Positions 11,526 to 21,466 of a DNA stretch of 35,964 bases are shown here, in pieces. Position numbers and translations under genes: made by a program. Below the pieces are notes generated by a model. It searched no databases, was not told the DNA's origin, and saw only the letters and a list, made by a program, of their open reading frames with translations. Origin of the DNA: Alphaproteobacteria bacterium (GTDB lineage: Bacteria > Pseudomonadota > Alphaproteobacteria > SHVP01). Location of the stretch: positions 1 to 35,964 of the forward strand of contig JAPYRS010000013.1 in NCBI GenBank assembly GCA_029936875.1, given 5' to 3'. Each line of letters opens with the position of its first letter. Position 1 is the stretch's first letter.

Positions 11526-11576
11526 TTTGAGCGTCCAATTCCTTATTCCGGGTTGAACAACGGGATAGCGTGAGAT

Positions 11577-11762
11577 ATGGCCGATATTCGAAAACTAGAC
11601 CGCGATGTGAAAGTCATCGCCATCTCCGGCGGCGGTCAGACCGGCGGCTTCAGTAACTATCTCGATATGGCAGAAAGATTGGGTGCGAATGCGTCGCTCG
11701 CGAAACCATTCACGCAACAGCAGCTTTTCGAAATTGTTGAGGTGACGCTAAACGGCGAATGA
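11577..11762 (+). pseudogene. C-terminal remnant of a single-domain response regulator (receiver domain)
   Basis: The 61 residues are the second half of a CheY-like receiver: DVKVIAISGGG is beta-4 with its loop, AERLGANASLAKPF carries the conserved Lys of beta-5, and the closing helix ends TLNGE. The first half, with the acidic pocket and phospho-acceptor Asp, is absent. No frame of the 51 bases between gcdH and this ATG encodes it, and an in-frame TGA sits two codons before the ATG. The fragment cannot be phosphorylated and is most likely debris of a deletion. Its 3' 106 bases are overlapped antisense by the marR frame. Confidence 0.75.
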
Positions 11763-12494: not shown

Positions 12495-13789
<1,295 letters not shown>

Positions 13790-19720: not shown

Positions 19721-20573
19721 ATGTTTTTCATTATCGGTTTAGTTGTCGTCATCGGCTCGGCACTCGGGGGTATTTGCCTCACGGCGACGTCGCCGTGCTC
19801 AACCAGCCTCTCGAAGTCCTGATCATTCTCGGCGGCGCGATGGGCGGTTTCATCATTGCCAACCCAAAGCCGGTTCTGGGCGCGGTCGTCAAAACCCTGG
19901 GACGCCTGCTTAAAGGTCCGCCGCAAAACAAGAAACCCTACCTCGAACTTTTGACGCTTCAATACGCAATTTTCCGGCTCGCCAAATCGAAGGGCATGTT
20001 GACCCTCGAGACATATATTGAAAATCCAGAAGAAAGCGCTTTGTTCGGCGAATATCCGAAGTTTCTGAAGAAGAAGGCCGCCGTCACCTTCCTCTGCGAT
20101 TACTTGCGCCTGATGACCATGGGTACCGACAACCCGCATGAAGTCGAGACGCTTCTGGAAGAAGATATTGAGGCCATGCACGAAGGACCGATTCAGGCCT
20201 CCGACGCCATTCAGGCGATGGCCGACGGACTGCCGGCGTTTGGCATCGTCGCCGCTGTTCTCGGTATCATCAGCACGATGGGCAGCATTACCGACCCCCC
20301 CCCGAGGTTCTTGGTGAGAAAATCGGCGCGGCGCTAGTCGGAACATTTCTCGGAATTCTCATGGCCTATGGATTGGTTGGCCCGATGGCCTCCAATCTTA
20401 AAGGCTATGCCGATATCAAATATTTCAACTGCATCAAGGCCGGACTTCTTGCTCATATGCAGGGATACGCACCGGCGGTCTCGGTCGAATTTTCGCGAAA
20501 GATATTGATGCCGCACGAACGCCCAAGCTTCCTTGAATTGGAAGAAGCCTTGGAGGATGCACCGAGCGCATAG
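19721..20573 (+). pseudogene. motA: flagellar motor stator protein MotA, two frameshifts
   Basis: Inner-membrane stator subunit that couples ion flow to flagellar rotation. ATG 19721 (AAGG upstream) begins MFFIIGLVVVIGSALG; at the G5 run 19764-19768 the frame breaks and continues as YLPHGDVAVLNQPLEVLIILGG in the frame one base earlier. It carries EYPKFLKKKA and LGIISTMGSITD, then breaks again at a C9 run (20295-20303) and continues as EVLGEKIGAALVGTFLG and MAYGLVGPMASNLKGY to TAG 20573. Put together, the pieces give about 285 residues, full MotA length. One base added to each run, or two removed at the C run, restores the frame. As read, no complete MotA can be made. Confidence 0.85.
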
Positions 20574-20588
20574 CGTAAGGAACAGCTT

Positions 20589-21466
20589 ATGTCCGAAGGC
20601 GGCCATGCAATAATAATCAAGAAGGTCCACAAGGGTGGGCACGGGGCCATCACGGCGGCGCTTGGAAAGTTGCCTACGCCGATTTCGTGACCGCGATGAT
20701 GGCCTTTTTTCTGTTGCTATGGCTTCTCGGCGCAACGACCGATGAACAAAAAGCCGGTCTTGCTGATTATTTTGCGCCAACAACCGCAACGACGGCGCGG
20801 GCGAGTGGCGCCGGCGGCATGTTGGCTGGCCGTTCACTTTCGGATGACGTGGTGCTGGTCGGCGAAGGCGGAACGCCTTCGGTTGTCGTTTCGGTTGAAC
20901 CACCGCCAATCGTTTCCGGTAGCGCCGCGCCGACCGACGAAGAAATCGAGCAAGCGGCCGCAGCGGCAGAACAGGAGATGTTCAATGACGCGCTCGAGCA
21001 GATCAAACAGGCGCTCGCCGATTCAGAGGAACTTTCGGAGCTCAGCCGCAACCTGCTGATGGATATGACCAGTGAAGGCATGCGAATCCAAATTATTGAT
21101 CAGGAAGGCGGGTCTTTGTTTGAGAGTGGATCCGCCAGAATGGCACCGCATACAAGAAAGCTTCTTGCGCAGATTGCGCAGGTCGTAAGCCGTCTTCCCA
21201 ATAACCTCTCCATATCCGGGCATACGGATGCGTCGCCATTCCAGCGCGGCGACTATGGCAATTGGGAATTATCGGCTGATCGTGCCCTCGCCAGCCGCCG
21301 CGTGTTAATCGAATCTGGAATCGACCCGGACCGAATTGCCAAGGTATCAGGGCGCGCCGATCATGAGCCTTTAGTCGCTGAAGATCCGTTCTTGCCAGAG
21401 AACCGCAGAATCAGCATTGTCCTCCTGCGCGGTGCAACAGTACTGCCGCCGGAATTGCAAAAGTAA
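20589..21466 (+). pseudogene. motB: flagellar motor stator protein MotB, one frameshift near the start
   Basis: Peptidoglycan-anchoring stator partner of MotA. ATG 20589 has AAGGA nine bases upstream and begins MSEGGHAIIIKKVHKGGHG. The frame then breaks at the G4 run about 20641-20644 and resumes one base earlier as HHGGAWKVAYADFVTAMMAF. That part contains the ion-binding Asp of the single transmembrane helix (AYADFVTAMMAFFLLLWLL). As read, the first frame ends at TGA 20688 after 33 codons. The rest is intact: a charged linker, then the OmpA-like domain (LFESGSARMAPHTRKLL, ISGHTDASPF, NWELSADRALASRRVL, ENRRISIVLL). Initiation at the internal ATG 20696 would lack the N-terminus and the Asp. 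It lies 15 bases after motA. Confidence 0.85.

Follow-up and report, generated by a model that had tools for sequence, protein, structure and literature searches.

A frameshifted motB in a non-motile lineage is already known. The excerpted text of PMC2743711 describes a frameshift in motB and an insertion in fliP in the non-motile Burkholderia mallei, as well as flagellar pseudogenes in Brucella, where fliG is the gene most often affected. Non-motile genomes across bacteria often still contain stator and rotor genes according to excerpts of PMC12199754, whose authors judge there that flagellar losses by and large happened long ago and could not put them in order. In Campylobacter jejuni 81-176, spontaneous motA mutants have been obtained (PMC3928116, in excerpt). 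The locus presented here, as far as these partial sources allow a comparison, resembles that of B. mallei in carrying a frameshifted motB in a lineage without motility, but B. mallei retains numerous flagellar genes, whereas most were not found in our assembly and the stator is a remnant. It shares with Brucella the decay of alphaproteobacterial flagellar genes through frameshifts and stops, although the flagellar clusters of Brucella have been retained. The leftover stator and rotor genes recall the losses surveyed in PMC12199754, except that the break here looks recent. The C. jejuni mutants likewise have a broken motA in non-motile cells, but are variants inside one strain of a flagellated species. 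The present case is ordinary in kind and early in stage, and its value lies in that early stage: no flagellar apparatus turned up in the assembly, and the breaks in stator and flagellin genes look fresh.

The window, that is, the whole stretch of DNA analysed (35,964 nucleotides), is an entire contig (C54) of an assembly (G000) of 2.70 Mb in 223 contigs, with a completeness of 94.5% and a contamination of 2.3%. The closest named relatives of its MotB are Alphaproteobacteria, Sneathiella included. Short coding-like segments to which no gene was assigned were also seen at about 11575-11759 and 13591-13781. The stator locus comprises the following features:

19721-20573, forward strand: motA pseudogene, from ATG 19721 to TAG 20571-20573, in three pieces and three frames
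19766-19770, forward strand: G5 run following MFFIIGLVVVIGSALG, where motA first loses its frame
19774-19995, forward strand: profile match to the MotA_N domain, within motA
20295-20303, forward strand: C9 run with the second frameshift of motA, longer than any other G/C run of the window
20589-21466, forward strand: motB pseudogene, from ATG 20589 to TAA 21464-21466, in two pieces
20643-20646, forward strand: G4 run where motB is frameshifted, by a net offset of -1 (or +2)
20681-20683, forward strand: codon for the Asp that is conserved in the transmembrane helix of MotB, with no preceding in-frame start

Translation of motB from ATG 20589, which is preceded by TAAGGA, gives MSEGGHAIIIKKVHKGGHG and then runs out of frame, ending in a product of 33 residues with no membrane helix. 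Homologous sequence (HHGGAWKVAYADFVTAMMAFF...) resumes in another frame just past the G4 run and continues up to the TAA; this downstream piece matches the OmpA and MotB_plug profiles and shares 72% identity with MotB of G001, a comparison genome with flagellar genes in which motB is open. The conserved Asp, which is known to carry the ion in MotB, lies in the downstream frame, where no ATG, GTG or TTG separates its codon from the preceding stop at 20576; the earliest start codon, GTG 20687, is already past it. This rules out rescue of the MotB channel by an alternative start, and the transmembrane Asp is not part of any single open frame for motB. The preliminary description had placed a motB frameshift ahead of the ion-binding helix, and the positions of the G4 run and the Asp codon confirm this. 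It had also held that five G are needed at the run. The site of the break stands, whereas five G presupposes one particular ancestral spacing: in the 24 readable loci of 30 asked for, the spacing is KGGHGHHGG in six and KGGHGGHHGG, the presupposed one, in one, with other residues in the rest. Since both spacings are found among relatives, five G represents one of two possibilities and only the net offset of the event is known.

The two long pieces of motA are 71% and 69% identical to the MotA of G001. An in-frame deletion of two residues, absent from all nine aligned relatives, is also present. The MotA_N, MotB_plug and OmpA domains are all there, but spread over separate frames; the net offset is identical at all three breaks (-1, equivalently +2), and the proper frames of both genes are free of nonsense codons. 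The locus belongs to the MotA/MotB stator family as a pseudogene, and not as a working member. With motB broken once and motA twice, it yields no functional stator pair as the assembly stands, in agreement with the preliminary description.

Breaks at homopolymers could be bridged during translation, as such runs can be slippery and conservation of the coding sequence extends to either side of each break. However, programmed frameshifting would have to rescue MotA and MotB through three consecutive events, and single open frames encode MotB in G001, G002 and G006 and MotA in G001. The open MotB genes rule out a frameshift that is shared or programmed, and we give this explanation practically no credence. 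Phase variation, in which slippage in the C9 run would switch motA on and off, deserves slightly more attention given that no other G/C run of the window is as long, that excerpts of PMC8355987 describe phase variation through G/C tracts in Campylobacter, and that those of PMC3928116 describe high-frequency motA mutation in C. jejuni. Against this, three separate breaks in two genes would have to revert jointly, two of the runs have a length of only four or five G, and no flagellar apparatus was found for which switching would matter, making this a very improbable account.

A second MotA-like/MotB-like pair was matched in all nine relatives. In each of these the second MotB is an open frame of 211-257 aa, whereas in G000 only its last 132 residues were found, behind two in-frame stops on a contig (C158) that holds just 145 bases upstream, so that another arrangement elsewhere is possible. 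For its MotA partner, matched in the nine relatives, a search of G000 returned nothing better than E 0.03. The second MotA match of G002, close to the end of a contig, covers residues 69-274 only, and in G005 the match lies in two frames. The only MotA_N and MotB_plug matches of G000 are those in the window. Its other MotA_ExbB matches are on C83, where the protein reads as TolQ, and on C58, where the match is under the cut-off; a second intact stator was not found. The preliminary description had advised checking for a second stator pair and for flagellar structural genes elsewhere: the first check thus turned up only a truncated MotB with no MotA match, and the second, given next, found no FlhA, rod/hook or FliM-sized gene.

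Ten genomes of the family, G000 among them, were compared by profile search. FliG_C was matched in nine, FliMN_C in ten and Flagellin_N in nine; FlhA was matched in six and the rod/hook domain Flg_bb_rod in seven, neither of them in the 94.5% complete G000. The same two profiles found no match in G003 (100% complete) or G005 (99%). In each of these three genomes the single FliMN_C match is a frame of 81-86 aa, whereas the six FlhA-bearing genomes have frames of FliM size (357-399 aa) and others for a longer FliN (122-158 aa), the names FliM and FliN being assigned from frame lengths; the sole match of G000 is a short FliN in an ORF of 81 aa, with no FliM-sized or long FliN match. Core flagellar genes are absent from G000 within the limit set by its completeness. 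Its only flagellin match (C197; L139:1200-2010) is split across frames. The split separating its two long pieces is firm, since all four relatives in the comparison are matched by each of them; a further break near the start has weak similarity as its basis. The G000 fliG starts at a contig end and shows an in-frame TAA (C115:32-34), a weak indication at a contig edge. If the missing flagellar genes resided on unbinned contigs or an unbinned replicon, flagella would have been kept and only the motAB stator broken or miscalled. The incomplete assembly and a motB without signs of relaxation would both accord with this, but the flagellin is broken, a truncated form is all that was found of the second MotB, its MotA partner was not found, and several contigs would have to have been missed, since flagellar genes lie on several in G001 and G006. 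We consider such an outcome improbable.

Branch lengths bear on how recent the break is. With two outgroups, the motB branch of G000 measured 0.154 and 0.162 against 0.176 and 0.168 for G001, giving ratios of 0.88 and 0.96. For the control genes (ParC, threonine dehydratase, arginine-tRNA-protein transferase, DctM, DctP and DctQ) the G000/G001 ratio ranged from 1.16 to 1.84, orthologs being best tblastn hits, of which DctP and DctQ of G006 (37-40% identical) are perhaps not orthologs. With ten other outgroups, the G000 branch of motB was longer in four; for motA, it was somewhat longer in seven of eight with the middle piece and in one of eight with the last piece. The later parts of both stator genes are well conserved, as had been noted at the outset: 86 of 87 near-invariant stator positions (24, 18 and 45 over the three pieces) are intact in G000, and all 87 in G001. 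Relaxed protein evolution, a mark of pseudogenes left by flagellar loss, is not seen in motAB, a pattern that fits recent inactivation only. Since motB evolved at about the rate of G001 and near-invariant positions were kept, the stator would have been under selection until lately, and judged from these sequence comparisons the motAB break looks recent.

A pristine motB protein sequence would also be expected if the breaks were homopolymer miscalls in the reads or the assembly and the organism's motA and motB work. All three breaks do lie at G/C runs. However, each Pfam match of the other 32 genes examined in the window falls in a single open frame, and none of their 100 G/C runs of at least 4 is shifted, against three of three in motAB (Fisher, 5.7e-6, for a test framed after the fact). 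For a wider background, 26 stretches (271 kb, about 236 kb coding-like) were scanned, and the notion of an otherwise frameshift-free genome was given up in view of five genes, two of them clear cases and three probable ones:

L138:2368-3275: EamA transporter, clearly frameshifted, in two frames, the first half just below the Pfam cut-off
L181:7007-9735, forward strand: histidine kinase, clearly frameshifted, with protein parts in two frames
L165:7055-9396, forward strand: second histidine kinase, probably frameshifted
L167:7097-8688, forward strand: cyclase, probably frameshifted
L169:6957-8046, reverse strand: DUF4131 protein, probably frameshifted, match below cut-off

Long run-on pairs in L172, L177, L180 and twice in L182 were judged by eye to be ordinary neighbouring genes. 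The census relied on a home-made codon model that missed the first motA break and whose cut-off for choosing candidates would have excluded the second; the background count is therefore an undercount. Given five frameshifts per about 234 kb, so undercounted, three within the roughly 1.75 kb of motAB have a P of 8e-6, and pure random error is therefore an unlikely cause. By the same reckoning P is 1.6e-4 for two breaks in the flagellin gene and 0.018 for one. Inactivating mutations are concentrated in motility genes, though not exclusive to them.

Systematic error is a different matter. Four of the five background frameshifts repeat the net offset of motAB, so that nine of ten (two in motA, one in motB, two in flagellin and five others) share one net offset, as systematic single-base errors would, and at least two, probably five, further genes are affected in about 234 kb. 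Either decay of G000 with a bias towards deletions or systematic miscalls could account for this. The frameshifted non-motility genes look dispensable, which would favour decay; the concentration of breaks in motAB, the intact G/C runs in its neighbours and the failure to find flagellar genes in the assembly also speak against miscalls, and we regard working motA and motB genes as unlikely.

The data presented above have led us to favour a model, with a probability of roughly 0.7, in which the flagellum was lost from this lineage and motA and motB became pseudogenes only recently. Slippage at short G/C homopolymer runs is the most likely way in which their frames would have been broken. The motB message would then give only the 33-residue peptide, which lacks a transmembrane helix, so that no ion channel would be formed, and motA would be broken twice over. 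The flagellum was probably lost first or simultaneously, with the stator genes broken after selection had ended. Loss of the remaining apparatus means here absence from a 94.5% complete assembly in 223 contigs, and absent genes may be unbinned. Given that other, dispensable-looking genes are frameshifted too, decay could be under way, at an early stage, across the whole genome.

Relatives of G000 add to this picture. In G005, motB is a tail only, at a contig start, and adjoins genes for arginine-tRNA-protein transferase and topoisomerase (names read from the sequences), which are found close to motB in G001 and the window as well. Decay in the flagellum-less G005 is similar to that in G000, and flagellar loss seems to have been repeated in the family; G000 together with G003 and G005 offers several datable stages within one family. 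In G002 and G006 (L146 and L142), motB lies behind a threonine dehydratase gene, and neither motA nor flavin reductase was matched in these fetched stretches.

G003 and G005, without FlhA or rod matches, contain an open full-length FliG (363 and 372 aa) along with the short FliN (81-84 aa), at the following loci:

L117:9626-10717, L118:13922-15040, L145 and L143: FliG and short FliN loci of G003 and G005

Possibly, this FliG and short FliN form a rotor-like pair with another job. Caulobacter fssA/fssB were considered as an explanation of the extra FliG/FliN and set aside, as the excerpted description presents them as secreted proteins and makes no mention there of FliN. A further, speculative proposal to which we assign a low likelihood is that the stator and the second FliG/FliN pair had a joint, flagellum-independent role in the family that has just ended in G000. 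If true, it would explain both how selection on motB could continue in full once the flagellum had been lost and why G003 and G005 have kept a full-length FliG and the short FliN. Open flagellin genes are also present in these two genomes, where FlhA was not found, with two matches in G003 and five in G005 (L156 and L157 among the loci). Near fliG in both genomes lies a gene that, by eye, resembles that of a pentapeptide-repeat protein.
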